Part shown: positions 5,757-28,000 of the stretch, one piece after another
Layout of the letters: each line of letters starts with the position of its first letter
Numbering within the stretch: position 1 is the first letter of the stretch
Assembly: GCF_009749385.1 (NCBI RefSeq)
Contig: NZ_WBIN01000012.1
Span: 124,001-188,000 of the forward strand
Length of the DNA: 64,000 nucleotides
From: Agromyces allii
GTDB lineage: Bacteria > Actinomycetota > Actinomycetes > Actinomycetales > Microbacteriaceae
Direction: 5' to 3'
Translations under genes and position numbers: made by a program
The notes under the pieces: model-generated
The model's input: the letters and a program-made list of their open reading frames with translations, nothing else
Databases searched by the model: none
What the model was told of the DNA's origin: nothing

Positions 5757-5810
5757 TGCTCGCCGCCGCGCAACTGCGTTGGCGACGTCGTGTTGAACCC
5801 TGAGGAACCG

Positions 5811-8762
5811 ATGACCATCGAAACCACCGCTAGATCCGTAGCCACCGAGGCGACGCTGCCGTTCACGCTCCCCGAGACGCCGACCGAGCTTCGCGCTTCC
5901 CTCGAAGCTGGAAATGCCATCGCCTGGTACGAGCCGGTAGAGATCCCCACCTACGAGCCGCACGATCCGTCGACGTTCCCGATGTATCTCGACCAGCGGG
6001 TGTACCAGGGATCTAGCGGACGGGTCTATCCGTTGCCCTTCACTGAGCGCATTGATTCCGTCCCCACATTGCGCCGATGGAACGCGATCCACGTCGAGAA
6101 CCAGTACATCCGCGTCATGATCCTGCCGGAGCTCGGCGGACGAATCCACGTCGCCTACGACAAGACCACGGACTACGACTTCTTCTACCGCAACAACGTC
6201 ATCAAGCCTGCACTCGTGGGACTCGCGGGATCTTGGATGAGTGGCGGCGTCGAGTTCAACTGGCCGCAACACCACCGACCCGCCACCTTCCTCCCCGTGG
6301 ACTCGACGATCGAGACCCATGACGATGGAAGTGTCACCGTCTGGTGCAGCGACCACGACCCGTTCGCTCGGATGCGCGGCACCCATGGCATTCACCTGAG
6401 CGCCGGAAGCTCGACCATCCGTCTTGACGTCCGGGTGCACAACCGCACGAGCCTGTCGCAGACCTTTCTCTGGTGGGCGAACGTGGCCGTTCGCGTCCAC
6501 GACGACTACCAGTCCTTCTTCCCCGAAGATGTCCGATACGTCGCGGACCATGCACGTCGCGCCATCACCGCCTTCCCGCAGGCGGACCGGCCCTACTACG
6601 GAGTCGACTACCAAGAGCGGGCTCGCGATACGCCCGGCGCCGACCGGCTCGACTTTTACCGCAATATCCCCGTGCCGACCTCCTACATGGTCGTGGATAC
6701 CGATCACGAGTTCTTCGGTGGCTTTGACCACCAGGTCGGTGCCGGGTTCGTGCACTGGGCGGACCGGCGGGTCGCGCCCGGCAAGAAGCAGTGGACCTGG
6801 GGCAATGCCCCATTCGGGCAGGCTTGGGACCGATTGCTGACCGATGCCGACGGACCCTACGTGGAGTTGATGGCGGGCGTCTACACCGATAACCAGCCCG
6901 ACTTTTCGTGGCTCGCGCCCGGCGAGTCGAAGCGGTTCAGTCAGTACTGGTACCCGATTCCCGCCATCGGAGTCGCGCATGAGGCTTCCCCAGAAGCAGC
7001 AATCCATGTCGAGCGGGGTGCGCAGTTCTCCGCAGCGGTCGCCGTCACCAGTCCCCAGCCCGCCGCCCGACTGGTCGTGTTAAGCAAGGACGGCGAACGG
7101 GTCGTCGAACTGTCCTCGGACCTGACGCCCGGTGTCGCGTGGCACGAGGAGTTCCCCCTCACGTACGAGGAGGGCATGGCCGTTCGGCTCGAGAGCGCGA
7201 TCGGGGCCACGCTCGTGGAATGGCTGGCACCCGTCGAGGTCGACGGATCAGCCGAGCCGTGGACCGCAAAAGCGCCACCAGCGCCTAGCGAGGTCGGTAG
7301 CGTCGATGAGTTGTACTTCATCGGCCTGCACCTGGTCCAGTACCGTCACCCGAGCCGCTCACCGCTCCCGTACTGGACCGAAGCGCTCCGTCGCGATCCT
7401 TCGGACTCACGCGTGTTGACCGGGCTCGCCGAACTGGCGTTCCGGGCTGGTGAATACGACATCGCCAGCGGGTACGTGAAGCGGGCGCTCACCCGAGTGA
7501 CCGAATTCAATGGCAACCCCCGGAACGCCGAGACGCTCTACCTGCTCGGCCTGATCGAGTCACGGCGTGGAGACCAGCACGCTGCCCACGCGGCATTCGC
7601 CAAAGCCGCATGGGACGCCCCATTCGTGGCACCGGCGGGACTAGAGATGGCACGCCAGTACGCCCGCGAGGGCAGGTACGAGGCAGCTCTTCACGACCTG
7701 GACGAACTCGACGCTGTCGCGCCCGACGATCGCCGCCGCGGCGTCCTCCGCGTCGTCCTGCTTCGCCGGCTGGACCGCCTCACCGAGGCAGATTCCGCAC
7801 TTTCAAAGCTGCTCAACGAAGAGCATCTGAATCCAACCCTGACCTTCCTCGCAAGTGGACGCTTGCCGGCTGACGGACCCACAGCCCTGGATGTTGGGCT
7901 CGAGCTCGTCCACGCGGGGGACGACGACGGCGCTCTCCAGGTACTGGCCGCGGCGACAGAGATCGGTCCGACCGGTTCCGGGAACGGCATGCCGCTCGCG
8001 CACTACCACCGCGCCGCGATCCTCGATCGCCTCGGACGTGCCGAGGAAGCGACGACCGAACGTGCCCTTGCGCGATCTGCGGATCGCCGATGGTGCTTCC
8101 CCGCTGGGCTCGACGACCATGATGCGCTCGTCGCGGCCGTTCGCGCGGAGAACGACCCGGTGGCCTCATCGCTGCTGGGTATGCTCCTGTTCGACGCAGG
8201 CCGCCGGGCGGACGCTCTCCAACTCTGGGAAGCCGCGATTCGTGCAGGTGGCAAGGATTCACTCCTGCATCGCAATGCTGGCCTCGCGAGCTACAACGTC
8301 GCCCATGACGACGCTCGCGCGGTCGAACATTACGATAGGGCCATCGAGATCGATCCTTCCGACGCCCGCCTGCTCTTCGAACGGGATCAACTCGCCGTGC
8401 GCCTGGGCGAAACCGACGAACAACGCCTCGCGCGCCTGTCCGAGCGCTTCGAGGTAGTTGAGGAGCGTGACGACCTGATCGTCGAGTATGCCGAATTGCT
8501 CGTCAGCACCGGTCGCCCCGACGCCGCGCTCGAGCTACTGCAGGAGCGAAACTTCCAGCCCTGGGAAGGCGGCGAAGGTCGAGTTCTTGGCGCCTGGGAT
8601 CGCGCGCGCACAGCGCTTGGGTTGCCGATCGCGGAACCGCCCCTGAGCCTCGGCGAAGGCCGGCCGCTCTACGAGGCCCCCGTGGCTCGTCGCGCCAACG
8701 GTGAGGTGGACTATTTCGCCACGAGTCTCCCCGACCTACTCCTGTTTTCAAGGTCCGAGTGA
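5811..8762 (+). CDS. DUF5107 domain protein with C-terminal TPR repeats
   Basis: A 983-residue cytoplasmic protein. The N-terminal part (about residues 40-330) matches the DUF5107 family, whose function is unknown to me. It has a galactose-mutarotase-like feel (NAIHVENQYIRVMILPELGG, SGGVEFNWPQHHRP, TFLWWANVAVRVHDDYQSF). The C-terminal half (from about residue 520) is a series of tetratricopeptide-like helix pairs, for example DSRVLTGLAELAFRAGEYD and ARAVEHYDRAIEIDPSDARL. A GAGGA site sits 5 bases before the ATG at 5811, which decides the start over earlier in-frame codons. It is the first gene of a run of four or five same-strand genes leading to the importer and GH35 genes. A carbohydrate-active role, or sensing of imported sugar, is likely but unproven. 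Confidence 0.85.
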   Translation: MTIETTARSVATEATLPFTLPETPTELRASLEAGNAIAWYEPVEIPTYEPHDPSTFPMYLDQRVYQGSSGRVYPLPFTERIDSVPTLRRWNAIHVENQYIRVMILPELGGRIHVAYDKTTDYDFFYRNNVIKPALVGLAGSWMSGGVEFNWPQHHRPATFLPVDSTIETHDDGSVTVWCSDHDPFARMRGTHGIHLSAGSSTIRLDVRVHNRTSLSQTFLWWANVAVRVHDDYQSFFPEDVRYVADHARRAITAFPQADRPYYGVDYQERARDTPGADRLDFYRNIPVPTSYMVVDTDHEFFGGFDHQVGAGFVHWADRRVAPGKKQWTWGNAPFGQAWDRLLTDADGPYVELMAGVYTDNQPDFSWLAPGESKRFSQYWYPIPAIGVAHEASPEAAIHVERGAQFSAAVAVTSPQPAARLVVLSKDGERVVELSSDLTPGVAWHEEFPLTYEEGMAVRLESAIGATLVEWLAPVEVDGSAEPWTAKAPPAPSEVGSVDELYFIGLHLVQYRHPSRSPLPYWTEALRRDPSDSRVLTGLAELAFRAGEYDIASGYVKRALTRVTEFNGNPRNAETLYLLGLIESRRGDQHAAHAAFAKAAWDAPFVAPAGLEMARQYAREGRYEAALHDLDELDAVAPDDRRRGVLRVVLLRRLDRLTEADSALSKLLNEEHLNPTLTFLASGRLPADGPTALDVGLELVHAGDDDGALQVLAAATEIGPTGSGNGMPLAHYHRAAILDRLGRAEEATTERALARSADRRWCFPAGLDDHDALVAAVRAENDPVASSLLGMLLFDAGRRADALQLWEAAIRAGGKDSLLHRNAGLASYNVAHDDARAVEHYDRAIEIDPSDARLLFERDQLAVRLGETDEQRLARLSERFEVVEERDDLIVEYAELLVSTGRPDAALELLQERNFQPWEGGEGRVLGAWDRARTALGLPIAEPPLSLGEGRPLYEAPVARRANGEVDYFATSLPDLLLFSRSE

Positions 8763-14532: not shown

Positions 14533-14563
14533 CGGTCGGCCGGAGCTCAGCTCCGGTCGACCG
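14533..14563. terminator. hairpin between convergent genes
   Basis: CGGTCGGCCGGAG (14533-14545) pairs with CTCCGGTCGACCG (14551-14563) around the loop CTCAG, with one mismatch in the stem. It lies between the stop of the GH35 gene and the 3' end of the convergent toroid-protein gene, overlapping the last codons of the latter. It could stop transcription in both directions. Confidence 0.55.
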
Positions 14564-15692
14564 CTCCAATCCTCACCAGCGGATCCGGGTTGTGCACGCC
14601 GGCCGGGCGATAGCCGAGTCCGTCCGACACACCGAGATAGTCGGCGAGCAACCAGACGATCGTCAGCCACATCTCCGTACCCTGAAGGCCCGGCACGCTA
14701 TCGGCCCCATCCGAGTGCGGCGCGAATGCGAAACCTTCGCCGTCATTCCAGTTGGTCAGAGCTCGATCCAGTTGCGCACGCGCCCACTCTTCTCCCTCTT
14801 CACGTCGGCGCGAGGACTGCCTTGCTGCCAGCCAGAGCGGGTGGATGATGTCGAGGATGTTGCACGCCGTATAGCCGTCCCCGGATTCGAGGGACGGATC
14901 CGCGGCGTGCGTGAGCACCGTTTCGATGCTCGCCTCGGGGTGCGGCAGTGACAGGCCGAACTGGGCGTAGGTGCCACGCGTCAACCGGTAGAACCCATTG
15001 ACGGGCTGGAGCCAACCGGTGTCCTTCTGACGTGCACCCCACATGCCCGTGGTCTCGTTTGACCGCGCGGTCAGCCATCCGAGCAGCGCGTACAGCGGAC
15101 CAAACCCCTCGTCGTCGAACAGGTGCCCGAAGTCTCGAATGTTGACAGCGCATGCGGTACCGATCGCGTCGACCGCAGCACCAGAGGCCCAAGCATGAGC
15201 GCCCCAGTCTCGTGACTCCAGGTCGGCCACCAAGTCGCGAGTGCTCAGACCGTGGACGATCCTGATCGGATGATCGAACGTCCGGCCGAGAAGCTTTAGC
15301 GCGTAGCCGACGCTAAGGATGTGATAGCTGGCCGACCCATCGAATGGTCGACGCTCGAGTTCGTAGCGGGCAGGGTTGTCCAGCCCACGGTCCGAGAGGT
15401 CGCCGTCAGGAATCAGACCAGTCGCCGGATCTTGAAGGGCGGTGAGGCGGCGCGCAAGATCATCAGTCTCGAATCCGAGCGGCGTTCTCCCGGTGAGCAC
15501 ATGCGCCAACTCGATCGCGTCACTCCAGGGACGGACCGCCGGGGGGAGCGGGCCAGAAGCCGACAAAGGTCGGTCAACGAATCGTCCATCCTCGAAGCAG
15601 CGGGAGAGGACGTCGTCAACCTGGGCCGGCAGCGCGCGGCCGAATCCGGCGAGTCGGCCCTCGAGCCCAGGGGCCGTCCGATGCCGGCTCAT
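14547..15692 (-). CDS. alpha/alpha-toroid-like protein, copy 1
   Basis: A 381-residue protein of unrecognised function. It is rich in paired amphipathic helices with squalene-cyclase/prenyltransferase-like QD-x-G turns (LQDPATGLIPDGD, TTGMWGARQKDTGW), suggesting an alpha/alpha toroid. It is clearly related to the protein at 19331-20440: RIVHGLSTRDLVADLE aligns with RYLAEASVRDLEAAVS, and PVNGFYRLTRGTYAQFGLSLP aligns with PHINRAFHVLRASWNLSGRP. The ATG overlaps the stop of the upstream acyltransferase by 4 bp. There is no signal peptide, so it is probably cytoplasmic. It may be a glycan lyase, hydrolase or isomerase; no family catalytic residues can be named. Confidence 0.75.
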   Translation of the reverse strand: MSRHRTAPGLEGRLAGFGRALPAQVDDVLSRCFEDGRFVDRPLSASGPLPPAVRPWSDAIELAHVLTGRTPLGFETDDLARRLTALQDPATGLIPDGDLSDRGLDNPARYELERRPFDGSASYHILSVGYALKLLGRTFDHPIRIVHGLSTRDLVADLESRDWGAHAWASGAAVDAIGTACAVNIRDFGHLFDDEGFGPLYALLGWLTARSNETTGMWGARQKDTGWLQPVNGFYRLTRGTYAQFGLSLPHPEASIETVLTHAADPSLESGDGYTACNILDIIHPLWLAARQSSRRREEGEEWARAQLDRALTNWNDGEGFAFAPHSDGADSVPGLQGTEMWLTIVWLLADYLGVSDGLGYRPAGVHNPDPLVRIGAVDRS

Positions 15693-16288
15693 CCGTCGCG
15701 CCGATCGCGGAGCTGTCGAGCAGGATTGCCGGCCACGATCGCCCAGTCGGCGACGTCCTTCGTAACGACCGCCCCTGCCGCGATGACGACATGGCTGCCA
15801 ATGCGTACACCGTCGAGGATGGTGGCGTTGGAGCCGACCCAGACGTCATCGCCGATGACGATCCCCTTGCTGAAGACGCCTTGTGTGAAGACGGGGGCAT
15901 CAGGCGACATCCGGTGGTTGAAGCCGAGGATCGACGTGTGCGCGCCGATCCGCACACCATCGCCGATCTGGATCTCGCCACGGACCACGGCGAACGGATT
16001 CACGGAGCAGTCGGCGCCGAACGTCAGCTCTCCGGTCAAGTAGGCGAGCGCCGCAACATAGGTTCGATCACCGACTGTCAGCTTGTCGCAATAGACGGCC
16101 GCATTCGGTGCGATGAACACACCGGCGCCGATGGTCGCCCCTTCAGCTTCGAGGGCGCGCTGCCGTTCACGCTGACGGGCTCCTTCCGCGGAATCGGCAT
16201 CGTACTCCCACGGGAGGAAGTCGACGCGGCGCACGGATTCTTCATTGAACTGTTCCACCCTTCCACGGTAGTAACCCCGGCCAGCCAC
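15689..16288 (-). CDS. hexapeptide-repeat (LbetaH) acyltransferase, copy 1
   Basis: About 199 residues. Imperfect hexapeptide repeats (IGAGVFIAPNAAVY, IGDGVRIGAHTSIL, IGDDVWVGSNATIL, IGSHVVIAAGAVV) form a left-handed beta-helix, as in maltose/galactoside O-acetyltransferases. The likely catalytic His is in GFNHRMSPDAP. It probably transfers an acetyl or other acyl group from CoA to a sugar. The longest frame starts at a GTG at 16288 with no Shine-Dalgarno, and internal GTGs at 16258 and 16234 are alternatives, so the start is uncertain. Its stop overlaps the start of toroid copy 1. It is related to the acyltransferase at 20437-20985. Confidence 0.85.
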   Translation of the reverse strand: MAGRGYYRGRVEQFNEESVRRVDFLPWEYDADSAEGARQRERQRALEAEGATIGAGVFIAPNAAVYCDKLTVGDRTYVAALAYLTGELTFGADCSVNPFAVVRGEIQIGDGVRIGAHTSILGFNHRMSPDAPVFTQGVFSKGIVIGDDVWVGSNATILDGVRIGSHVVIAAGAVVTKDVADWAIVAGNPARQLRDRRDG

Positions 16289-16290
16289 CG

Positions 16291-16320
16291 ATATGGAGGC
16301 AGTCCCGGATCACATGGAGG
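16291..16320 (-). promoter_or_regulatory. AraC-type direct repeat, 21-bp spacing
   Basis: ATATGGAGG (16291-16299) and ACATGGAGG (16312-16320) are direct repeats with starts exactly 21 bp apart. That is the geometry of adjacent AraC-family half-sites. They lie between the divergent acyltransferase and dehydrogenase genes. Read on the minus strand (CCTCCATRT) they resemble the TCCATATG core of the motif at 8775-8786. Confidence 0.45.
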
Positions 16321-16456
16321 ATGCTCCTGCACACACACATGCAGATCGGAGTTCTGTCCAGCAAAGCAGACGATTGCTCCATTCTCAGTACCACGGCCTC
16401 TGAGTAGCGTTGCGAGGGTGACAACGATGATGTCGGCGCAGGCGAGGAGGAGCGGT

Positions 16457-17422
16457 GTGAGACTTCGAGCCGCATGGTCGATGGACGCGGGACTCGAGAC
16501 GAGGCTCTTCGACGAGGCACAGCGCGGACGTATCCATCGGCACCTGGAGTTCGAGCCCGAGTCAGCATCGGGCACACAGGTCTTGATCACCGGATGGGGA
16601 GCCCAGAGCATCGGTCCTGCAGAGCTGGATCGGATGCCCGGCCTGCAGGCGATCCTCCACTCCGGTGGCACCGTCAAAGGAATCCTCTCTCCCGAGGTCT
16701 GGGCGCGCGGAATCCGCGTGACGACCGCCAGCGCAGCGAATGCCCTGCCGGTCGCCGAGTTCGCATTGGCGTCCATCCTGTTCGCAGGGAAGGATGTACT
16801 CGCGGCGGCCAGCGACTACGCCAGCGACCCCGGCATCGATCGAGACGGTGAACGCTTCGCTTCGATCGGCAACTACGGCCGCACGATCGGAATCGTCGGA
16901 GCCTCGCAGATCGGCCGCCGCGTCATCGAGTTGCTGCGCCCGTTCGATATGACCGTGATCGTGTTCGATCCGTACCTGGACGCTCGCGACGCGGCCGCCC
17001 TGGGGGTTTCAAGCGTCACACTGGACGAGCTCTTCCTGCGCAGCGACATCGTGAGCCTGCATGCCCCGCTTCTGCCCAGCACACGCGGCATGGTCACCGA
17101 GGACCTGCTGGCGAGCATGCCGCCAGGTGCGACGCTGATCAACACGGCGCGCGGCGGCCTCGTGGACCAAGACGCCTTGGTGCGCTGTCTCGGTGAGCGC
17201 CGGCTCAACGCGGTGCTCGACGTCACGGATCCTGAGCCGCTGCCGCGCGACCACCCGCTTCGTCAGTTGCCGAATGTGCTGCTGACACCACATCTTGCCG
17301 GTGCCCGAGGCAACGAGCTTCGCCGTCTCGGTGAGTCGGTCGTCCTCGAAGTGGAGGCATTCGCCGCGGGGCTGGCTGCCATTCATCCGTTCGGGCTCGC
17401 GGACCTGGAGAGATCTGCATGA
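16457..17422 (+). CDS. D-isomer-specific 2-hydroxyacid dehydrogenase
   Basis: A 321-residue NAD(P)-dependent oxidoreductase. The Rossmann domain has GIVGASQIGRRVIELLRPF with the acidic end of the fold in VIVFDPYLD. The substrate-domain arginine/glutamate/histidine set appears in NTARGGLVDQDAL, VTDPEPLP and TPHLAG. The frame is open far upstream, but GAGGAGG at 16444-16450 is 6 bases before a GTG at 16457, and the protein then begins VRLRAAWSMDAG, so I choose that start. It is the first gene of a six-gene same-strand run ending in an AraC regulator. The substrate is a 2-hydroxy or 2-keto acid or a related sugar acid, not identifiable here. Confidence 0.9.
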   Translation: MRLRAAWSMDAGLETRLFDEAQRGRIHRHLEFEPESASGTQVLITGWGAQSIGPAELDRMPGLQAILHSGGTVKGILSPEVWARGIRVTTASAANALPVAEFALASILFAGKDVLAAASDYASDPGIDRDGERFASIGNYGRTIGIVGASQIGRRVIELLRPFDMTVIVFDPYLDARDAAALGVSSVTLDELFLRSDIVSLHAPLLPSTRGMVTEDLLASMPPGATLINTARGGLVDQDALVRCLGERRLNAVLDVTDPEPLPRDHPLRQLPNVLLTPHLAGARGNELRRLGESVVLEVEAFAAGLAAIHPFGLADLERSA

Positions 17423-18078
17423 GTGCCGTACTGATCGTGTCGGGTGGCGGAACGTACAGCGATCCATGGCATCCATTCGACGAGACGTCCGGGCGGCTCG
17501 TCGACATCCTGGGAGCGCGGAACGACGTCACACTCACAACAGACGTGACCCAGGCGCTCGCGAATCTGCACGCCGGCGACTGGGACCTCGTCGTTCTGAA
17601 CTTTGGCAGCGCGGGAGTCGCACTGCCCACCGACACGGCATGCGTCGATGGAATCCTTCGGTTTTCGGAAGCCGGTGGAGCGATCCTCGCGTGTCACGTC
17701 GTGGCGACGGCGTTTCCTGGCGACGAACGTTGGGAGCAGATCCTCGGCGGCCGCTGGGTTCGCGGAACGTCAATGCACCCTCCTCGTGGAACTGCCGATA
17801 TCAGCGTCCTGCCTGTCGATCACCCTGTCACCCACGGCCACGACGACTTCGTCCTCGTCGATGAACGCTACAGCTACCTGAAGGTCTCGCCGGAAGTTGA
17901 GATTCTGGCGACGCACGACCACGACGGGCTGGTACACCCGCTCATCTGGGCGCACTCCCGACCTTCGTCGCGAGTCATCTACGACGGACTTGGCCACGAC
18001 GCGGCATCGTACGACTCTGAGGAACACCGTGCCCTCGTCCTGAGCGCAGCTGACTGGCTCCTCGAGGGGAAGGTCTAG
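17419..18078 (+). CDS. ThuA-like domain protein
   Basis: A 219-residue protein with the ThuA fold, a glutamine-amidotransferase-like sandwich often linked to sugar metabolism. Recognisable parts are VLIVSGGGTYSDPWHPF, GDWDLVVLNFGSA, GGAILACHVVATAFPG, DHPVTHG and RVIYDGLGHDAASY. The Cys-His-Glu amidotransferase triad is not obvious. The ATG overlaps the dehydrogenase stop by 4 bp. It may act on keto-sugars together with the dehydrogenase; this is inference. Confidence 0.82.
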   Translation: MSAVLIVSGGGTYSDPWHPFDETSGRLVDILGARNDVTLTTDVTQALANLHAGDWDLVVLNFGSAGVALPTDTACVDGILRFSEAGGAILACHVVATAFPGDERWEQILGGRWVRGTSMHPPRGTADISVLPVDHPVTHGHDDFVLVDERYSYLKVSPEVEILATHDHDGLVHPLIWAHSRPSSRVIYDGLGHDAASYDSEEHRALVLSAADWLLEGKV

Positions 18079-19326
18079 GTGTCCGACATCACCGATGTGA
18101 AGAAGATCCATGACGCCGGGATTCCGCCCGTCGGCGAGACATTCAACGAGTCGAGCCTCTTTCCAGACGAGGTCACCCTGCGCCCAACCCGAAGGCTGAC
18201 GCAGTTCCGCGACCGGAATCAGACGCCGACGTACCACCTGAACAACGGCTTCACCACTGATGGTCGGTACCTCGCGCTGATGACCCAGAACGACGGAGGC
18301 GGGTCGGCAATCCTACGAGCCGAGACGGCTACTGGCGATCTGACAGTCGTGGATGCCACGTCCCCAGGCGCAACCGACCACTTCATCGAGGGCAACGACA
18401 TGACCCTGTGGTCGCAGCCTGGACTCATCGTGACCAAGCTGGGAGAGGCCGCACTGTACGCGTACGACGTGGCCACCCTCGAGAAGAAGGTACTGATCGA
18501 ACGATTCGAATCGGATTACGCGTACGGGCACCCTGCCGGATCCGCTGACGGTCGCCACCTCTTCATCGCGAAGCATCATCTGCCGAAAGATGAATCCACG
18601 CACACGATCTACCTGCGCATCGACCTCGTCACCGGCCATGTCGAAGAAGTACTCCGCGACGAAGGCTCGGCCAACGTTCACATCCTCGCCCATCCGACGG
18701 ACCCGGATCTGCTCCTCTTCGACCGCAATTACTCTCCCGGGTGGCACGGCGGCAGCGATGGAAAGACAACCAGGGCTTGGCTCCTGGACGCGAAGACCGG
18801 CTCGTTGACCGAGGTGAAACCGCGCAATGCGAACACCTTCCAGATCCACACGAACTGGAGCGCCGATGGCCAGTACATCTACTACCACGGCTCCTCCGGT
18901 AACCCCGCGCAGCTGCCTCGAGAACAGAAGCGTGGCCTGCTGTATGACTACACCGATCGCGATTGGCTCCTCGACATGCGAGGCATCGACCACTACATCG
19001 GTGTCGCCGACCTGCACGGCAACGTCATCTGGGAATCGGACTATCCGTTCTTCCACTACGGTCATTCGAGCTCACATGCGACGCGCCAAGCGATCATCAC
19101 CGATGGCCTCATCACCCCGGACCTGATCACCGCGATCCATTGGAATGAACTCGACTCGCTCGGACTGCCGAGAACCGAAATCCTCGGGCGGCACGGCACG
19201 TACTGGAAGACGGGACAACAATTCGACCCGCACCCGATCATGTCCGCGGACGGCAAGTATCTGAGCTACAACCGTGGCCTCCGTGACGGGCGCTCAGACG
19301 TCTACCTGATGCAGTTGGAGGCATAG
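18079..19326 (+). CDS. oligogalacturonate-lyase-like beta-propeller (PL22-like)
   Basis: A 415-residue protein with TolB/WD40-like blades ending in SADGxYL turns (HTNWSADGQYIYYHG, HPIMSADGKYLSYNR). The layout and the His-rich late blades (FFHYGHSSSH, DPHPIMSADG) resemble family PL22 oligogalacturonide lyases, which cut unsaturated pectin oligomers by beta-elimination with a metal. That would fit a pectin island, but I cannot confirm all metal ligands. Otherwise it is an uncharacterised propeller enzyme. The GTG start directly follows the ThuA stop, with GAAGG 6 bases before it. There is no signal peptide. Confidence 0.7.
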   Translation: MSDITDVKKIHDAGIPPVGETFNESSLFPDEVTLRPTRRLTQFRDRNQTPTYHLNNGFTTDGRYLALMTQNDGGGSAILRAETATGDLTVVDATSPGATDHFIEGNDMTLWSQPGLIVTKLGEAALYAYDVATLEKKVLIERFESDYAYGHPAGSADGRHLFIAKHHLPKDESTHTIYLRIDLVTGHVEEVLRDEGSANVHILAHPTDPDLLLFDRNYSPGWHGGSDGKTTRAWLLDAKTGSLTEVKPRNANTFQIHTNWSADGQYIYYHGSSGNPAQLPREQKRGLLYDYTDRDWLLDMRGIDHYIGVADLHGNVIWESDYPFFHYGHSSSHATRQAIITDGLITPDLITAIHWNELDSLGLPRTEILGRHGTYWKTGQQFDPHPIMSADGKYLSYNRGLRDGRSDVYLMQLEA

Positions 19327-19330
19327 CCCG

Positions 19331-20440
19331 ATGCATGTACTGTCCGCGACGCATGACCTGGATACGCCGACGGTGTCCGACCTGCTGACGGGCATCGCCG
19401 ACCGAGCCGGCGCGTGGCTCACGCGCCGCCGCAGCCCTGACGGAATCGGATTCGGGCTTTGCGAAGGGTCGATCGTTCCAGTCGAGCTCAATGCCACAAC
19501 TGCAGGTGTGGAACTGTGGGTCGCGCTCGGGCTCCCGCTCACAGCCCAAGAGCGAGTGAGCTGGATCGAACATCTGGCCGCCTACCAACTGGAACGCACC
19601 GGACTGGTCGTCGACCGCACCTGGCGCGGACGGCAGCTCGTGGCGAACCCGCGGCAGCGATCCGACGGCGACACCTTCTTCACCATGACCACGACCGCCG
19701 CGCTCGACGCACTCGGAGGGCAGCTCCGCTACCCCGTGAGATACCTTGCAGAGGCGTCCGTTCGCGACCTGGAAGCCGCAGTCTCCTGGGAGTGGCTCGC
19801 GCACGCCCCGTTCGGCGTTGGAGACTTCGGGCCCTTAGTGCTCCACAACACGCGGCTGGCCGTCCCAGGTGCCGCCGAGCAATGGAGCTGGGTCAACGAG
19901 ATGCTCGTGCGCACTCAAGACCCCAGCGGCTTCTGGCCGGTCGGCACAATCGCTGGTCCGATCACACCCCACATCAACCGAGCCTTCCACGTGCTGCGCG
20001 CGAGCTGGAACCTCTCCGGGCGACCAATCGAGCGTGCAGAGTCCCTCATTGACGCCTGCCTCATCGCCGGCGACGACCCGACGTTCTACGGATGGGACAC
20101 GGGCTTCGCTTGCAACGATCTCGACCTTGCTCACGTCGCCTACTCCGCGGCTCGATGGACAGACCACCGACGCGACGAACTCGCCGACTGGGCGCGACGT
20201 TTGCTTGCGCGAGTACTCGCCGTCGAGAAGCCCGGAGGAGGCTTCTCGTTCTTCCACGAAACGGCCATGGAAGCGCACGCAGGAATCGCGATGAGCGGCC
20301 GCCGGCCCAAGGCAGACATGTGGGGAACGCTGATGTACCTCGGAGCGATCAAAATGACGGCCGAGCTCGGCTGGCCCGAGGTCAAGGCCCCCTGGGCCTT
20401 CAGCAAAGTCCACGCGGTACCGGAAGGCGGCAGACGATGA
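19331..20440 (+). CDS. alpha/alpha-toroid-like protein, copy 2
   Basis: A 369-residue paralogue of the protein at 14547-15692, with the same helix-pair pattern and a shared core (TPHINRAFHVLRASWNLSG, GWDTGFACNDLDLAHVAYSA). Turns such as QDPSGFWPVG recall squalene-cyclase/prenyltransferase toroids. Conserved Asp, Trp and His positions could form an active site, but no known family triad is visible. GGAGG lies about 9 bases before the ATG. Its stop overlaps the following acyltransferase start by 4 bp, so the two are translationally coupled, as in copy 1 but in the opposite gene order. Function unknown. Confidence 0.78.
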   Translation: MHVLSATHDLDTPTVSDLLTGIADRAGAWLTRRRSPDGIGFGLCEGSIVPVELNATTAGVELWVALGLPLTAQERVSWIEHLAAYQLERTGLVVDRTWRGRQLVANPRQRSDGDTFFTMTTTAALDALGGQLRYPVRYLAEASVRDLEAAVSWEWLAHAPFGVGDFGPLVLHNTRLAVPGAAEQWSWVNEMLVRTQDPSGFWPVGTIAGPITPHINRAFHVLRASWNLSGRPIERAESLIDACLIAGDDPTFYGWDTGFACNDLDLAHVAYSAARWTDHRRDELADWARRLLARVLAVEKPGGGFSFFHETAMEAHAGIAMSGRRPKADMWGTLMYLGAIKMTAELGWPEVKAPWAFSKVHAVPEGGRR

Positions 20441-20985
20441 CGAACGCATACAGCTGGTGGGAGGAGACCCGGACGGGTTCCCCCGAATCCATCCGCATTG
20501 GCTCGGGAACTCGGATCGCACCGGGCGCGCGACTCGACGGAGCGTCCGGGCCGATTTCTTTCGGAGAGAACTGCGAGATCCATGAAGGAGCCCTCTTGCT
20601 GCCGTACGGCGGTTCGATCCGGCTCGGCGACAACTGCACCGTGAACCCGTACACGGTGATCTACGGCCACGGCGGAGTTCAGATCGGCGACAACGTCAGG
20701 ATCGCGACGCACTCTGTGATCGTCTCCGCCAACCACGTCTTCAGCGACCCCGACCAGCCGATCTACCAGCAGGGTGTCACCGCCGAGGGGATCGTCATTG
20801 AAGACGATGTCTGGATCGGAGCGAATGTCACCATCCTCGACGGGGCGCACATCGGCCACGGATGCGTCGTCGCAGCTGGCAGCGTCGTCCGCGGCCACCA
20901 CGCGCCAATGTCGGTGCTCGGCGGCACGCCAGCACGTGTGTTGAAGAAGCGCAACGCGGGAGACCTCGTCACTCCGCTGCCGTGA
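20437..20985 (+). CDS. hexapeptide-repeat (LbetaH) acyltransferase, copy 2
   Basis: A 182-residue left-handed beta-helix acyltransferase with repeats IGSGTRIAPGARL, LGDNCTVNPYTVIY, IGDNVRIATHSVIV, IEDDVWIGANVTIL and IGHGCVVAAGSVV. The probable catalytic His is in SANHVFSDPDQPIYQQG, aligning with GFNHRMSPDAPVFTQG in copy 1. It probably acylates a sugar or glycoside. The ATG lies within the stop of toroid copy 2. An AraC-type regulator gene follows 25 bases later. Confidence 0.87.
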   Translation: MTNAYSWWEETRTGSPESIRIGSGTRIAPGARLDGASGPISFGENCEIHEGALLLPYGGSIRLGDNCTVNPYTVIYGHGGVQIGDNVRIATHSVIVSANHVFSDPDQPIYQQGVTAEGIVIEDDVWIGANVTILDGAHIGHGCVVAAGSVVRGHHAPMSVLGGTPARVLKKRNAGDLVTPLP

Positions 20986-21010: not shown

Positions 21011-21853
21011 GTGGCTCTAGACGCAATCGAGGAGCTCCTCGGGACAGTCGTGCTCCGCCAACATGGTGGATTCGGCCGCCGAGAATGCGAACCGGGCTGG
21101 GAGTGGAACCCGACCCTCGACGACTACGACTTCTGGTACGTCATCGCAGGCAGCGGCGCGCTGAGCATCAACGACGGACCTCAGCGCCAACTCGAGCCGG
21201 GGTCCCTCGCGGTGCTTCGGCCCGGCGATCATGTCCAGGCCACACAAGACTCGACCGCTCGTTTGACCGTCCTGTACTGCCACTTCGAGTTCGTCGACCG
21301 AACGACGGGACTTCCCGTCACGCTTCCACCCGAAAGCATGCCTGGCCCTCTTCTGACCGTGAAGCAGGTCGGACCCATCGCCGACGCTCTGTATCGGATC
21401 GTCAGGCGCTTGCGCGATCGCAGCGCCTTGGGGCACTACGCCGCAGGCGGGATGCTCATGGAACTGTTAGCCCAGGTCTACGTACAAGACGCCGCGCAAC
21501 GGGGCGGCGCTCAAGGCATCGACACTCGTTTGCAAGACGCCATCGAGCTCATTCTCGACCGCCCCGCCAGGAGATCGTCGCTGGATGAGGTCGCGCGGGC
21601 GGTCGGACTGTCGGCGGACCAGCTGAGCCGTCTGTTCGTCACCCAACTTGGCACGACCTTCCGACGCTTCACTGTTGACGCCCGTCTCGATCGTGCGTGC
21701 GAACTGCTCCAACACACGGTCATGACCGTCAGCCAGATCTCGCTCGTGCTGGGCTACTCCGATCAGTTCCTCTTCAGCCGGCAATTCCGCGCCAGATACG
21801 GCGAACCGCCATCTGCCTACCGCCGTTCGGTGCACAACAGTCAGGGTTCGTGA
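21011..21853 (+). CDS. AraC-family transcriptional regulator
   Basis: A 280-residue regulator. An N-terminal cupin (DDYDFWYVIAGSGALSI, LEPGSLAVLRPGDHVQ; about residues 25-90) precedes the AraC helix-turn-helix pair (about residues 175-275; SLDEVARAVGLSADQLSRLF, VSQISLVLGYSDQFLFSRQF, GEPPSAYRR). The GTG start has GAGGAG 6 bases upstream. It is last in the run that starts with the 2-hydroxyacid dehydrogenase gene, so it may autoregulate that operon through the direct repeat at 16291-16320. The inducer is unknown. Confidence 0.9.
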   Translation: MALDAIEELLGTVVLRQHGGFGRRECEPGWEWNPTLDDYDFWYVIAGSGALSINDGPQRQLEPGSLAVLRPGDHVQATQDSTARLTVLYCHFEFVDRTTGLPVTLPPESMPGPLLTVKQVGPIADALYRIVRRLRDRSALGHYAAGGMLMELLAQVYVQDAAQRGGAQGIDTRLQDAIELILDRPARRSSLDEVARAVGLSADQLSRLFVTQLGTTFRRFTVDARLDRACELLQHTVMTVSQISLVLGYSDQFLFSRQFRARYGEPPSAYRRSVHNSQGS

Positions 21854-21930
21854 CATGTACCGGGGCTATTCCCGCTTTCTAGGCTGAGTGTATTCATCAG
21901 GCATCCTGCCCGATCAGGAGGAGATTCACC

Positions 21931-22791
21931 ATGTCAACGGACACGCTTACCGGCGGGGTCGACACGCTCGGCGGAGAGTACTCGGAGCATCTCTACCGCA
22001 ACGACGTCGTTGCCCAAGCCGTTCCCGACCTCGCAGCGATCGACGCCGACGCGATCGAGGAGTACCGCGCAATGGGCTTCCTGGCCGTCGACCACGCTCT
22101 CACCGCCGAGGAGACCGCATCCGCGATCGTCGGTCTGAAGACGGTCATCGACGAAGCGTCCGACCGCATCGACCTCCAGTTCGAAGCCGCTGTCGCCGAC
22201 CAACTCGAATCGCTCACCCCTGACGAAAAGGCCGACTCGATCCGCCGTCTCATGAAGTTCGTGAACGAGGACGAACGCCTCCATTCCATCGCCTATCACC
22301 CGGAGATCCTTCGTGTAGCCCGCGAGATCATCGGAACGGACGACATCATCATGTTCCAGGACATGGCACTCCTGAAGCCCCCGGGCGTCGGCCGGGAGAA
22401 GCCGTGGCACCAGGACAAGGCGTTCTTCAACATCGACCTGAACGCAACGGTCGTCGGGGTCTGGATCGCGCTGGACGAAGCCACATTCGAGAACGGCTGC
22501 ATGCACGTCCTACCCGGCTCGCACAGTGAGGGCCCAGTTCCGCACTTCGCCCGACGAGACTGGCAGATCTGCGACACAGACGTCGCCCTCGCTAGGGACG
22601 TCGCTGTGCCCCTGAAACCCGGCGGTCTCCTCTTCTTCGACGGACTCATTCACCACGGCACGCCGGCGAACCGGACGGACACCCGTCGCCGGGCGATCCA
22701 GTTCCACTACGTGGACCGGAACGTATTCACCATCCCCGAGGAAGACCGCCTCGAGGTCTATGGTCTCGAGGGTCGCGGCGTCACGTGCTGA
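21931..22791 (+). CDS. phytanoyl-CoA dioxygenase family protein
   Basis: A 286-residue Fe(II)/2-oxoglutarate-dependent oxygenase of the PhyH family, which hydroxylates small molecules. The metal-binding HxD is His160 and Asp162 in WHQDKAFFNI. The distal His is 241 or 242 in IHHGTPANRTD, and RRRAIQFHYV carries the 2-oxoglutarate-binding Arg. AGGAGGAG lies ahead of the ATG. The next gene starts within its last codons. The substrate is unknown; context suggests a sugar derivative. Confidence 0.88.
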   Translation: MSTDTLTGGVDTLGGEYSEHLYRNDVVAQAVPDLAAIDADAIEEYRAMGFLAVDHALTAEETASAIVGLKTVIDEASDRIDLQFEAAVADQLESLTPDEKADSIRRLMKFVNEDERLHSIAYHPEILRVAREIIGTDDIIMFQDMALLKPPGVGREKPWHQDKAFFNIDLNATVVGVWIALDEATFENGCMHVLPGSHSEGPVPHFARRDWQICDTDVALARDVAVPLKPGGLLFFDGLIHHGTPANRTDTRRRAIQFHYVDRNVFTIPEEDRLEVYGLEGRGVTC

Positions 22792-23750
22792 CCTCCGAAA
22801 CGGCGGATACCGTGATCGACGGAGTTCGCTATCGGATCGAGATCGTCGACGCGCTGGACTCTGAAGCCACGGCCTGGGCGCACCCCGGCGTCTGTGTCGC
22901 GCCTGGGAACACGGTGCTGTGGACTGCCCCGGACGGATCCACCATTCGTAGCCTTGCAGCGGACGGGCGCGGCGCGCCTCGTGCCGTCGACGCAGTCGAG
23001 TGCCACGGGCTCGCATCGGACGATCACGGTGGTGTCTGGATCGCCGACCCTGGACGAAAGGCGCGGGCTGACGGCCCCGAGGTCGTTCGACGGGTATCGG
23101 AGGGTCGAGTCACACGAGTGAACGCAGTAGGCGTCACGACCCATGAGCTCGCCGACCCGGGGGATGGCTGGCGCCCATCCGGCATCGCGTTGCGCGACTC
23201 CCGAGCAGCACACGACGAACGGATCTGGGTCGCAGACGGCTATGGGCAGAGTTTCGTGCACTGCTTCTCGGCGGATGGAAAGGTCCTGTGGTCCAGCGAC
23301 GGCAGCGACAGCGGGACGCCGTTCCTCACCCCTCATGGCATCATCGTCGACGACCGCGGGGCCTCCCCGCGCCTCCTCGTTGCAGACCGAGGCAACGCGC
23401 GAATCGTTGCCCTCACGCTCGACGGTGTCTTCATCGAGTCGGTGGGCGAGGGCGAGCTGACCAGTCCGTCGAATTTTGCGCTCAACGGCTCGCGCCTTTG
23501 GGTGACCGAGCTTTTCGGCGCGATCATCGTGCTGAATGACGACGATCGCGTAGTGGGCTCGTTCGGAGACGCTTCGAAATCGGATGATCCAATCTGGCCC
23601 AACGTATTGGCTGACGGCCGCCTCGGAGGGCCGTCCGTTTCACCCGACCGGCTGCGGGCGCCGCACGGCATCGCGGTAACAGCGAACGGCGAGGTGTACG
23701 TCACAGAATGGATCATCGGAGGGCGCGTCATCAGGCTCGTGCCGACGTGA
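22785..23750 (+). CDS. NHL/SMP-30-like six-bladed propeller protein
   Basis: A 321-residue protein with repeated propeller strands (HPGVCVAPGNTVLWTAPDG, GLASDDHGGVWIADPG, PHGIIVDDRG...LLVADRGNARI, APHGIAVTANGEVYVTEW). This pattern is seen in NHL-repeat and gluconolactonase-like proteins. The GTG start overlaps the dioxygenase stop by 7 bp, indicating coupling. No secretion signal. A lactonase or hydratase role in sugar-acid metabolism is conceivable; function unassigned. Confidence 0.8.
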   Translation: MLTSETADTVIDGVRYRIEIVDALDSEATAWAHPGVCVAPGNTVLWTAPDGSTIRSLAADGRGAPRAVDAVECHGLASDDHGGVWIADPGRKARADGPEVVRRVSEGRVTRVNAVGVTTHELADPGDGWRPSGIALRDSRAAHDERIWVADGYGQSFVHCFSADGKVLWSSDGSDSGTPFLTPHGIIVDDRGASPRLLVADRGNARIVALTLDGVFIESVGEGELTSPSNFALNGSRLWVTELFGAIIVLNDDDRVVGSFGDASKSDDPIWPNVLADGRLGGPSVSPDRLRAPHGIAVTANGEVYVTEWIIGGRVIRLVPT

Positions 23751-23840
23751 CCCGCTCCGGCGAGTTCGCTCGTCGGATCGTCTATGCCCAACCCCGGTTC
23801 GATCCTGTCCGCGACTGCCCCTGCCCACAACACTCGAACC

Positions 23841-24833
23841 ATGCCCCACACTGCAGCGGCCGGCCGCTACGCATCGATGACCTATGTCCGTTCAGGCCGG
23901 AGCGGCCTGCGGCTTCCGCGGATCTCGCTCGGCATGTGGAACAACTTCGGCACGACGCGAGGGTGGGACACGCAACGCGCGCTCGTGACGCATGCCTTCG
24001 ATCGAGGCATCACGCACTTCGACCTTGCGAACAACTACGGTCCGCCTCCCGGCGCCGCGGAGAGCGCCTTCGGTCGGGTTCTCGCCGGAGACCTACGGCA
24101 CTACCGAGATGAGATCATCGTCTCGACCAAAGCGGGCTATCAAATGTGGGACGGCCCATACGGCGACTGGGGATCGCGTAAGTCGATGCTCGCATCGCTC
24201 GACCAATCCCTGCATCGGACCGGACTCGAGTACTTCGACGTCTTCTACTCGCACCGCCCGGATCCCGAGACGCCGATCGAAGAAACGATGGGCGCCTTGG
24301 CCGCCGCGGTGCGACAGGGCAAGGCGCTGTACGTCGGCATCTCCAACTACAACGCCGAGCAGACCCGTGCGGCGGTCATCGCGCTCCGCGCCGAGAACAT
24401 CCCCCTGACGATCCACCAACCTCGCTACAACATCTTCGACCGGAAGCCAGAGGATGCACTCCTGGCCACCCTCGACGAGCTGGGTGTCGGATGCATCGTC
24501 TTCTCTCCGCTCGCAGGCGGACTGCTCACGGAACGGTATCTCGAGGGCGTCCCACCGGGCTCGCGAGCGGCGGAAGGCCGATGGATGAACTCATCTGACA
24601 TCGGTGAGGAGTACCTGGCGACGGCGAACGCGCTCGCAGATATCGCAGAACGCCGGGGGCAGACGCTCTCCCAGCTCGCCCTGAGCTGGGTGCTTCGCCG
24701 ACCGGAGGTCACGAGCGCTCTGATCGGGGCTTCCAGCATCGACCAGCTCGACCGAAACCTCGCCGCGCTTGACGCGGCCGGGCTGACCACGGCTGACCTC
24801 GCGGCAATCGACGAATACGCCCGCCAGCACTGA
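23841..24833 (+). CDS. aldo/keto reductase, YghZ-like (AKR14)
   Basis: A 330-residue TIM-barrel NADPH-dependent reductase. The tetrad is visible: Asp and Tyr in HFDLANNYG, Lys in STKAGYQMW, His in FYSHRPDPETP. The N terminus (GRYASM...RSGRSGLRLP) matches the E. coli L-glyceraldehyde-3-phosphate reductase YghZ, whose alignment supports the ATG at 23841 rather than the longer frame from 23784. No strong Shine-Dalgarno is visible. It could reduce aldehydes or aldoses arising in the pathway. Confidence 0.9.
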   Translation: MPHTAAAGRYASMTYVRSGRSGLRLPRISLGMWNNFGTTRGWDTQRALVTHAFDRGITHFDLANNYGPPPGAAESAFGRVLAGDLRHYRDEIIVSTKAGYQMWDGPYGDWGSRKSMLASLDQSLHRTGLEYFDVFYSHRPDPETPIEETMGALAAAVRQGKALYVGISNYNAEQTRAAVIALRAENIPLTIHQPRYNIFDRKPEDALLATLDELGVGCIVFSPLAGGLLTERYLEGVPPGSRAAEGRWMNSSDIGEEYLATANALADIAERRGQTLSQLALSWVLRRPEVTSALIGASSIDQLDRNLAALDAAGLTTADLAAIDEYARQH

Positions 24834-24887
24834 GTGCGGACCCTGCGGATCGGCTCTGCTCGCCGATTCAACCACGCGGGGCGTGCG

Positions 24888-24924
24888 CATCTGGGTGGAC
24901 GTCGATCATCGTTTCGTCCAGATG
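24888..24924. promoter_or_regulatory. inverted motif upstream of GH53 gene
   Basis: CATCTGG (24888-24894) and CCAGATG (24918-24924) form an inverted repeat. The right arm is part of TTCGTCCAGATG (24913-24924), the motif shared with the importer and GH51 upstream regions. It lies about 95-130 bases before the GH53 start, a typical activator position. Confidence 0.4.
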
Positions 24925-25017
24925 ATTCCGGAAGATTCTCACTTCTCGGCCCCCTCGGCCCGGCCATACGTTCATGGGCGATCCCAAACAACTCGACCAT
25001 CACCACGAAGGAGTGAG

Positions 25018-28000
25018 ATGGCTACCAATCGCACGGTCCGAGGTCGCTTCCGCCGAGCCCTGGCTATCGTCGCCGCATCGGCAGTCGCACTTCCCGTCGC
25101 AGGTGTCGTGTTCGCTCCGGCCGCCGAGGCAGCCGTACCTGCGGCAACAAGCATGGCGAGTGCGGTGGCGGCGCCTGACGCGAATCTCGACTTCGAATCG
25201 GCTCTTTCCTCGTGGGAGACGACTGGCAATGTGACGGCACCCACATCGGGAGCCCAGCACGGCAATAGGTACGCGTCGCTCGCTGCGAATGCCACGGCAC
25301 GTGTCACCATCTCAGGGCTCGCCCAGGGCAGCTACAGTCTCGCGGGATGGTTCCGCGGTTCCGCCGGCAACAACAACGCGAACCTGACCGTGTCCGGCAC
25401 TGGAGGCCCCAATTCGGTCGCCTTGGTGGATGCCAACATCAACAACAACGCGTGGCAGCAGACCTCGCATCGCAATGTCTTGGTGTACTCCGGCGAGCTG
25501 ACGCTCTCGATCACCGCCGGAAGCACCGCTCTGAGCGTGGACAACCTCACGCTCACGCTCGACTCCGCAGACCTGTCCGTCCCCAACTGGGGATTCGAAT
25601 CAGGCCTTGACGGGTGGAACGCATCCGCTGGCGCCAGTCTGGACTCGAGCAGCGCCGATACCGGTCAGAACGCCGTCAAGCTCGCGGCAGACGCCACGAT
25701 CTCACGCCAGGTCGCAGTGGAGCCGAACACCCGCTACGGATTCACCGCCCGGGTGAAGGTCGACGAGCAGGACACCTTCTCAACCGAAAAGGTGAAGGAC
25801 GCGAAGGACCGGATCATCGGCGAACTCGTGCACCGTGAATCGACCGGCGACCGAGTGAACATCGGCGTCAAGTCCCTGAACGGGACTGTCCTGCGCCAGG
25901 CTCCTGCAGGCACGGACGGCTACTCACTCGTCTCGATCACCTTCGAGACCGGGCCCGACGACCACGCTGTCGAGCTGTACGCAAACACCGTCAAGGACGA
26001 CGCTTTCGAAGCCTCGGTCGAGCTCTGGAACTCCGATGGCACCTACGTAGAAGACCCCTGGAACGGCAACGACGACCACTTCGCGTACGTCGACACGATC
26101 GACCTGTTTGCAATCCACGACGATGAGAACATCCGCGGCGCCGACGTTTCGTTCCTGCCCGCCATCGAAGACCACGGCGGCAAGTACTTCGCCAACGGGG
26201 TTCAGCAGGACGGACTGCGGATCTTGTCCAACCACGGCGTGAACTCGATCATCTCGATGATCTTCGTGCAGGCAGGCAACACCGTGTACGACAACAACAC
26301 CCTTGAACCGATCTATTCGGCCGAGCTCGATGACGCCGGCAACCCGATCGAATACAAGATGATCGAAGGCTACTTCGACAAGGTGCACACCACGAAGCTC
26401 GCCGAGCGTGCAACTCAGCTGGGCATGAGCTACATGCCGAGCTTCCACTACTCCGACGCCTGGATCAGCGCCGGCAAGGCTTACGCGCCGAGCTCATGGA
26501 TCAACACCGACTATGCGGGAAAGCGCACGAACACCGACCTCGCGCACATCAAGTCGATCGTCTACAACTACGTCTACGACTTCATCTCGGGTCTCGTCGA
26601 GAAGAACGTCGACATTGCCGGCGTCAAGCAGGGCAACGAACAAGATGGCGGGCTCATCTGGCCCATCGGCCGTGGTGCCACCTCGGTCGGGCACGCCTCG
26701 ATCATCACCGCGACGTGGGACGCGGTGGAAGCCGCCGCACCCGGAACTGCCCGATCCGTTCACACCAACAACGGGTACGACACCGCCTACGTCGACAACA
26801 TCTTCAACGGTCTCGCGGCGAACGGGGCAAAGTTCGACGGTGAGTCCCACTCGCTCTACGGCGGCCGCTCGAGCGGCAACATCATCAAAATGGCCAACGT
26901 GCTGAACGCCAACCCGGACCGTCGATACCACGACTACCTCAACGTCGAAACGGGATTCGCCTTCACGAAGTACCTGGCCAGCTACAGCCAGCAGACCGCA
27001 TCGATGGGTCAATCCGCGTACTACCGGAGCAGCCCGAACGGCCAGTACAACTGGCTGCTCGACTACCAGCAGGCCGCCTTGGACACACCGAACCCGTACG
27101 GCCAAACCCGAGGCTTCTACTACTGGGAGACCGACTGGATTCCGACGCCAGGCGCCGGCAGCAGCCAGACCTCAAATGCCACTGTCGCCGGCCGCATAAT
27201 GTTCAACAACGGCGATGTCACCATCAAGGAAATGGGGAGCACCCGCGCCGGAAAAGCCGGCGACATGATGGATTCGATGTACGCGTACCTCTGGCGCGGC
27301 CTCCCGAAGGCGAAACCGAGCACCGCACTGACACCACTCAACTCCGACAACGGAATCGCCGATGGCGTGTATGCCGTCACCCCGACCGAACCGACCGGGA
27401 TCTCGCTCGCCGAGACGATCCTGTCCCTCACGACCGGTCGAAGCCAGCGGCTCAAGCCGACGATCATCCCGATCGACCAGGTGCTCAACGACAGCACGAT
27501 CGACTATTCCTCCGCCAACACCGCGGTCGCGACCCTGACCGACAACGGTTATGTGCGGGCCGAAGGGCCGGGCACAACGACCGTTACGGCCACGGACGCC
27601 GCAGGCCACACGGCCACGGCGACGGTGAACGTTGCCGCTCCCACCCTGGCGTCCAACGCCGACCTGACCATCACTGCCGGAACCAACACGGTCGCCGACG
27701 GCGGCACGATCACCGCCGCGGTCCTGGCTCGGGTCGACTTGACGGCAACCCTCGCCAACGCGACATCCAAGTCCGTCGTGTTCAGTTCCTCCAACCCGGG
27801 AGTCGCCTCGTTCTTCGGCGAGACCTGGCAAACGCCGGCGGGCAGCTTGCGAGGGCGAACGGATGACTCATCGAAGGTGCAGCTCAATGTGAAGCGTGCC
27901 GGCTCCACCACGATCACGGTGACCTCCACCGACGGTGGAGCGTCGAAATCCTTCACGCTCAACGCAACGAAGGTCGGCGTCACATCCGTCACGCTCAACA

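Follow-up and report, generated by a model that had tools for sequence, protein, structure and literature searches.

Acyltransferases built on the left-handed beta-helix (LbH) of hexapeptide repeats include sugar O-acetyltransferases such as LacA, which caps sugars that the cell cannot metabolise so that they leave. Why cells acetylate sugars within catabolic loci is an old LacA question that is still unsettled. Alpha/alpha toroids form a separate fold, which is seen in the beta subunits of the protein prenyltransferases, whose zinc ligands (Asp, Cys and His) sit on inner helices 5 and 6. A stretch of 64,000 nucleotides from Agromyces allii (contig NZ_WBIN01000012.1, positions 124,001 to 188,000, hereafter the window) harbors two gene pairs in which an LbH acyltransferase is encoded next to a predicted toroid: pair A (acyltransferase P0003 and toroid P0001) and pair B (toroid P0002 and acyltransferase P0004). 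In the loci examined, the toroid is a constant companion of the LbH acetyltransferase, and the two are normally one polypeptide with the acetyltransferase first. Taken as a whole, the evidence is consistent with the two genes of each pair encoding halves of one two-domain enzyme that acts on sugars, a reading to which we give a probability of roughly one half.

The genes of each pair are coupled by a 4-bp ATGA overlap of stop and start codons, and the two orders are opposite: in pair A the acyltransferase precedes the toroid, in pair B the toroid precedes the acyltransferase, with a ribosome-binding-like stretch (GGAAGG) upstream of P0004. A check of the open reading frames bore out this arrangement of four genes, positions and strands included, as described in a first-pass annotation of the window. 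The two toroids are 27% identical over 279 columns (pairwise BLAST, E 7e-16) and the two acyltransferases 42% identical over 167 (E 1e-38), values that rule out chance in both cases and uphold the paralogy claimed there. Both acyltransferases score above the PF00132 (Hexapep) cut-off of 27 bits, which agrees with their earlier assignment to the LbH hexapeptide proteins. The A. allii genome holds no further toroid copy at E ≤ 1.

Acyltransferase and toroid in other genomes

Outside the window, all 72 toroid loci examined carry an LbH acyltransferase directly N-terminal of the toroid: 68 as a single intact frame, three as broken or degraded copies and one as two genes split at the linker. No toroid without the acyltransferase, or in the other order, occurs among these loci. 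The survey had been set beforehand as the test that could refute an association with hexapeptide acyltransferases; the association held, and with it the suggestion that the two products belong together. The first set contributes 40 loci, all with the LbH domain first, of which 37 are intact frames (L056, L074 and L076 are broken or degraded). The three Rhizobium loci reached through the acyltransferase search (L092-L094) are fused, as are 28 of the 29 loci of the third set; in the exception, L156, the break falls in that same linker and leaves a GTGA overlap. These loci do not count as independent cases, since L020 is nearly identical to L068 and the five Rhizobium loci are close kin. The hosts are Actinomycetota, Rhizobiaceae and a haloarchaeon (Haloarcula).

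Within the same family, 11 of 249 genomes match P0001, the source genome included, and genome contigs yield 10 loci. Matches on plasmids amount to 136 records, 115 of them from Rhizobium and the rest from other Rhizobiaceae, Streptomyces, Frondihabitans and Haloarcula; together with 12 plasmid records matching P0002, they provided the six records that were opened (L051-L056). A joint toroid profile found one locus in viral contigs and two matches, the source genome included, in 396 genomes of the phylum, a search that scored only five candidates per genome and may have missed members. These family and phylum draws share some genomes with one another and with the draws searched for P0002. The search of order genomes returned 37 rows, comprising 29 new loci, two of the window's own, one (G488) that equals L075 and five without a locus (frames of 568-960 aa), which were left out of the count of 72.

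Some of the frames are extra long (up to 1070 aa). A third domain was considered for these and dropped, as Pfam gives only hexapeptide-type matches in seven of them. Codon-based gene starts lie near the LbH part in most, and the L017 gene is called as 931 aa, with a further stretch ahead of the LbH part. The fused gene also occurs on a contig filed as viral (L057, IMGVR_UViG_3300019487_000065). In four genomes of one genus (G1009, G1022, G1082 and G1157) the toroid search matches twice, each time in a long open frame, and the genome with the broken or degraded copy L074 (G450) has an intact copy, L077, elsewhere.

Predicted fold, conserved residues and possible function

Sequence alone did not show the toroid fold. 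P0001 and P0002 match no Pfam family at E ≤ 1 and no PDB sequence (phmmer, E ≤ 1; profile, E ≤ 10), and the prenyltransferase repeat, PF00432, matches none of 21 members of the toroid family at E ≤ 1. The stray matches yield no useful family: P0001 to one NCBIfam model (E 0.055, far under its cut-off) and, among the 21 rows, one to DUF7012 (1.7e-4) and one to EBV-NA1 (0.066). AlphaFold2, supplied with 13-row alignments of the window proteins and their relatives, modelled both proteins as alpha/alpha toroids, with a mean predicted local distance difference test (pLDDT) score of 92.0 and a predicted template modelling (pTM) score of 0.92 for P0001, and of 75.1 and 0.82 for P0002. VIA-align 2, used as a second look at the candidates of Foldseek, matched P0001 best to the beta subunit of Rab geranylgeranyltransferase (RabGGTase; 4ehm_B, Z 19.6, 273 residues, 3.4 Å) and P0002 best to that of farnesyltransferase (FTase; 2f0y_B, Z 19.1, 297 residues, 4.7 Å). 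For P0002 the best 50 rows are all protein prenyltransferases, down to Z 16.3; for P0001 the first other protein among the matches listed is dextran dextrinase (Z 14.5). Chains of the glycoside hydrolase (GH) 88 type and of the squalene-cyclase type are not among the 50 rows listed, and are not thereby excluded. Identity to the prenyltransferase beta subunits is about 8-14%.

As modelled, both toroids share the alpha/alpha-toroid fold of six helical hairpins found in protein prenyltransferase beta subunits. The toroid-like fold that had been proposed for them is thus predicted for both, and they do not fall into unrelated folds. In these models the prenyltransferase likeness is one of fold only, and says nothing on function. 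Foldseek itself weighs against the assignment: it found no PDB match at E ≤ 0.001, and instead of prenyltransferases its top rows hold a GH146 enzyme in first place (E 0.11), then an Actinoplanes protein and an isomerase, and in fifth place (E 0.29) a heparin-specific unsaturated glucuronyl hydrolase.

Both halves contain candidate catalytic residues. In the LbH domain, His125 of P0003 and His100 of P0004 occupy a position where all 43 non-gap rows have His, and which aligns to the His of a maltose-type acetyltransferase (MAT/3nz2) which we take to be the catalytic one, located at the inter-subunit site. His125 and His100 are the putative catalytic His residues of the two proteins. Toroid conservation was scored over 42 rows, P0002 included and the defective L056, L074 and L076 left out. 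The invariant positions are, among others, E61, W163, W218, N232, R239, C277, D281, H284, R296, G338 and T339; E340 is Glu in 41 of 42 rows, P0002 having Leu in the multiple alignment as against Asp in the pairwise BLAST. By our assignment on the P0001 model, inner helix 4 carries N232 and R239, inner helix 5 carries D281 and H284, and inner helix 6 carries E340. The invariant polar residues suggest that the toroid has an active site.

In the joint enzyme that we favour, the LbH part would form the usual trimer and use acetyl-CoA to acetylate a hydroxyl on a small sugar or sugar-acid product in the cytoplasm. The three toroids would hang on this trimer, and their central cavity, into which E61, N232, R239, D281 and H284 likely point, would bind this molecule and probably convert it. 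In many loci (22/40) the enzyme probably serves the breakdown of imported oligosaccharides of the uronic-acid or pectin/arabinogalactan type, and the copies in the window lie in an arabinogalactan-type cluster with GH51-type, GH35 and GH127 genes. It counts against this picture that we infer the activity, the substrate and the product for every member.

The main rivals of the joint sugar enzyme are two. The first, which we consider doubtful, is a LacA-like housekeeping role: the acetyltransferase would cap non-metabolisable sugars for exit and the toroid would serve only to recognise the substrate or to shape the oligomer, with no catalytic role. The LbH domain is indeed related to maltose and galactoside O-acetyltransferases, part of the loci adjoin sugar uptake genes and LacI-type regulators, and the two domains go together in all 72 loci. 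However, all 42 rows have E61, N232, R239, D281, H284 and R296, a larger set of invariant polar residues than a scaffold would call for, and P0003 falls far under the NCBIfam cut-offs for maltose (67.8 of 314 bits) and galactoside acetyltransferase (51.6 of 347 bits).

The second rival, which we think unlikely, is a two-step enzyme, comparable to the hexapeptide enzyme CysE, which makes O-acetylserine. Acetylation would make a hydroxyl a leaving group, and the toroid would eliminate or isomerise the acetylated sugar acid, perhaps aided by a metal bound to D281, H284 and E340. The constant fusion suggests successive steps, and the neighbors include lyase-type genes (heparinase II/III-like and GH88). 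Moreover, the D281-x-x-H284 motif and E340 lie on the inner helices that correspond to the zinc-ligand helices of the prenyltransferases, a match of helices and not of aligned residues. Against this scheme, the P0002 counterpart of E340 is acidic in the pairwise alignment only, and the metal, the product and the reaction are proposals; that the toroid binds a metal at all is something we only infer.

Origins of the two pairs

The history of the acyltransferases was traced in a midpoint-rooted tree of 79 LbH domains, from which domains shorter than 110 or longer than 260 aa, identical rows, and the entries L099 and L100 (the same places as L128 and L129) were removed. P0003 and 42 fused LbH domains form one clade (100/95), within which P0003 has Promicromonospora and Microbacteriaceae sequences around it (100/95, 97/85, 98/96). 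A fused clade excluding P0003 is rejected by the approximately unbiased (AU) test (p 0.0015), the group having been named only after the tree was seen. The junction agrees with this placement: the acyltransferase ends in QLRDRRDG and the stop codon, the toroid starts with MSRHRTAPGLEGRLAGF, and the fused counterpart in L020 reads PIRDRRTRSRPANDLEGLLAAF. Because P0003 nests in the fused clade and the junction parallels L020, pair A is best read as a split of an ancestral fused gene at its linker, which left an operon with an ATGA overlap. The split could also be an artefact of sequencing or assembly, the gene being an ordinary fused one in reality, given that nearly all relatives of pair A are fused and that a one-base frame change near the junction divides the halves. 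We regard such an error as very improbable, since the break falls cleanly, with its ATGA overlap, in a linker that makes up about 4% of the gene, and since L156, which belongs to another family, has a comparable break (GTGA) at this linker, although that contig might hold an error too.

The version seen in pair B is deep, divergent and reversed in order. Searches of 249 family, 394 class and 386 order genomes (draws that partly overlap) and of viral contigs turned up nothing closely related to P0002, and the 12 plasmid records that match it (best E 2e-13) include no close relative. In the best LbH tree P0004 lies outside the fused clade, with the stand-alone acyltransferases L091 and L128/L129 in between; a recent copying of P0004 from P0003 was considered and is ruled out by this tree. 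The window had been described as holding a duplicated module, which does not stand: pair A appears to be a split fused gene and pair B an old divergent version, and the tree does not fit a recent local duplication.

Judging from the sequences, pair B may represent an old form of the family that is unfused, or its two genes may have been paired independently. In the latter case, which we hold tentatively as a fair alternative, a divergent toroid recruited a different acyltransferase, and the likeness of the two modules is partly convergent. The gene order opposite to that of pair A would be explained, as would the branching of P0004 beyond L091, L128 and L129, and the matches of P0004 are slightly better to the stand-alone L090 (E 2e-40) and L091 (E 1.4e-38) than to the fused Rhizobium rows (3.4e-37). 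That P0004 is about equally similar to stand-alone polysaccharide acyltransferases (L090 and L091) and to fused ones weighs, more generally, against the joint-enzyme reading. On the other side, the AU test does not reject a tree in which P0004 joins the fused clade (p 0.318), the branch of P0004 is long, and a Trp near the domain start (W27/W8) is present in 42 of 44 rows, P0003 and P0004 included.

Of the stand-alone acyltransferases, L128 and L129 (genomes G359 and G323) lie nearest to the fused clade, and each follows an unassigned 395-aa frame. The frame in G359 is propeller-like by eye, recalling the propeller gene upstream of pair B. A propeller shared between pair B and these relatives of P0004 was considered and is weak, as the frame in G359 aligns with the window propeller P0007 in scraps only (best E 0.01).

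A bolder synthesis would have a prenyltransferase-fold domain become a metal-dependent sugar-processing enzyme in constant union with an acetyltransferase, the LbH part acetylating a sugar acid and the toroid then eliminating or rearranging the acetylated sugar. This would be a new "acetylate-then-process" step in the catabolism of oligosaccharides. It would extend over actinobacteria, rhizobia and haloarchaea, with one fission and one independent reversed pairing in the window. As a complete package we find it rather improbable.

Gene neighborhoods and relation to known systems

The features of the window are collected in Table 1.

Table 1. Gene pairs A and B and the gene run around pair B (positions in the window)
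Feature	Position	Strand	Details
Pair A acyltransferase P0003	15689-16288	minus	GTG start, 199 aa; LbH hexapeptide; PF00132 2.6e-23
Pair A toroid P0001	14547-15692	minus	381 aa; downstream of P0003; predicted alpha/alpha toroid, protein-prenyltransferase-beta-like
ATGA stop/start overlap, pair A	15689-15692	minus	falls in the linker of fused relatives; probable fission point
Pair B toroid P0002	19331-20440	plus	369 aa; divergent lineage
Pair B acyltransferase P0004	20437-20985	plus	182 aa; hexapeptide LbH; after toroid; PF00132 5.9e-22
D-isomer-specific 2-hydroxyacid dehydrogenase P0005	16427-17422	plus	PF02826 4.1e-51; first gene of the pair B run
ThuA-like protein	17419-18078	plus	PF06283 6.3e-20
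Beta-propeller P0007, PL22-like (oligogalacturonate lyase family-like), weakly assigned	18079-19326	plus	tblastn 23-24%; PF07676 0.026
AraC regulator, PhyH-type dioxygenase, NHL-repeat protein, aldo/keto reductase	21011-24833	plus	Pfam; short spacings, same gene run as pair B

Pair B is part of a longer gene run. The dehydrogenase (its ATG at 16427 is one choice among possible start codons) overlaps the ThuA-like gene by ATGA, and a ThuA-like gene is also found downstream of the fused gene in L017. These two operon partners, as first annotated, are supported by Pfam; the third, a propeller of polysaccharide lyase family 22 (PL22), is weakly supported. P0007 is 23-24% identical to two haloarchaeal proteins annotated as "oligogalacturonate lyase family" (tblastn), and has no Pfam family above the cut-off and no PDB sequence match at E ≤ 0.01. 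The wider surroundings of the window copies hold an arabinofuranosidase C-terminal domain (GH51-type), GH35, GH127, a sugar ATP-binding cassette (ABC) system and AraC regulators. Downstream of the pair B run, a 2185-aa frame (24883-31440) encodes a repeat-rich and probably secreted product. At 5754-8762, between an AraC regulator and a sugar-binding protein, lies a 1002-aa protein with DUF5107 and tetratricopeptide (TPR) repeats, of which a relative is found near the fused gene in L017 (cluster 30).

Neighborhoods outside the window were compared by gene calling and clustering over 40 loci, with family names taken from Pfam on one representative per cluster. At least one of eight recurrent clusters for sugar uptake, lyases or LacI regulators is present in 22 of the 40. 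Nine actinobacterial loci (L022, L058, L060, L062-L066 and L078) share a heparinase II/III-like gene, a LacI-type regulator and the fused gene and, divergent from the latter, DUF2264, a solute-binding protein and permeases (of which L022 includes one before it ends). In Allorhizobium (L055), two permeases, GH88, a solute-binding protein, DUF2264 and the fused gene lie on one strand, with a heparinase-like gene cut off by the end of the locus, and in Haloarcula the fused gene stands alongside GH88 and DUF2264; GH88 genes neighbor the fused gene in two loci. Four Promicromonospora loci contain LacI, ThuA and Gfo/Idh/MocA genes.

DUF2264 is present in 10 of 11 same-family carriers of the fused gene (window genome excluded) and in 5 of 50 same-family non-carriers (Fisher p 3e-7), or in 10 of 12 carriers when the window genome is counted (p 1.5e-6). 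The non-carriers were 50 of the 238 same-family genomes without a toroid match, taken in order, with G005, G009, G010, G012, G013 and G015 skipped as small or incomplete. Overall, 19 of 24 carriers have DUF2264, as against 2 of 14 named control genomes, and in eight of the ten same-family carriers with DUF2264 the copy lies no more than about 5 kb from the fused gene. No mention of DUF2264 was found in the open-licence PubMed Central (PMC) literature.

Action on an acylated sugar was a tentative suggestion of the first-pass annotation and stays a proposal. A sugar context of the family is supported by the recurrent neighbors and by the co-occurrence of DUF2264. Several observations weigh against it. 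The sugar clusters are lacking in 18 of the 40 loci, most of them unannotated, although Streptomyces L053, one of the 18, has two GH28 genes and one GH78 gene by annotation. The five Rhizobium loci examined (L051, L054 and L092-L094) adjoin genes for proline/hydroxyproline-betaine and not carbohydrate-active enzymes. For DUF2264, the carriers with a linked copy are related to one another, non-adjacent copies are not significant on their own (2/4 vs 5/50, p 0.08), and the window genome has none. The Rhizobium fused gene has fixed neighbors of its own, namely a LysR regulator, a Rieske-type dioxygenase, a 4-hydroxyproline epimerase (replaced in L054 by a proline racemase) and proline-betaine-type transport genes.

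The combination of acetyltransferase and toroid, and the toroid family itself, appear to be undescribed, both halves being known folds. The first-pass annotation already knew of no such described system, and no title or abstract start among the open-licence PMC papers listed describes the fusion. In two bacterial phyla and one archaeon, a sugar-type acetyltransferase carries a toroid for which Pfam has no family. This fused partner, with its conserved polar residues, offers a handle on the LacA question, since a ligand of the toroid would reveal the purpose of the acetylation, and since the partnership survives both fission and reversed order in the window, its halves should be easy to study as separate proteins.

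Among described systems, the LbH O-acetyltransferases (maltose O-acetyltransferase or MAT, LacA, WbbJ and NeuD) have the same hexapeptide repeats, a His at the aligned catalytic place and partly a sugar-operon context. Unlike them, the present family is fused to, or encoded with, a toroid, and P0003 and P0004 fall under the cut-off of every NCBIfam model among the best 25 per protein. The beta subunits of RabGGTase, FTase and geranylgeranyltransferase (GGTase) share the toroid fold and, by our helix assignment, likewise have polar residues on two inner helices, 5 and 6. In contrast to these, the window toroids, at the low identity given above, have no PF00432 match and no alpha subunit, and the Cys of the zinc site is presumably not kept as such in the family. 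The GH88-type unsaturated glucuronyl hydrolase, GH146 and dextran dextrinase resemble the toroids in overall toroid or barrel shape, but with lower VIA-align scores (best 14.5 among the matches listed) and no sequence relation found. Proteins annotated as "acyltransferase", "putative acetyltransferase protein" or "DapH/DapD/GlmU-related protein" (for example WP_283200584.1 and WP_324761041.1) are the fused relatives themselves, and in all four annotated records examined the name covers the acyltransferase half only. Within this fused acetyltransferase-toroid family, pair B does not fit, being reversed and outside the clade, whereas pair A fits, with the order kept and the split at the linker.

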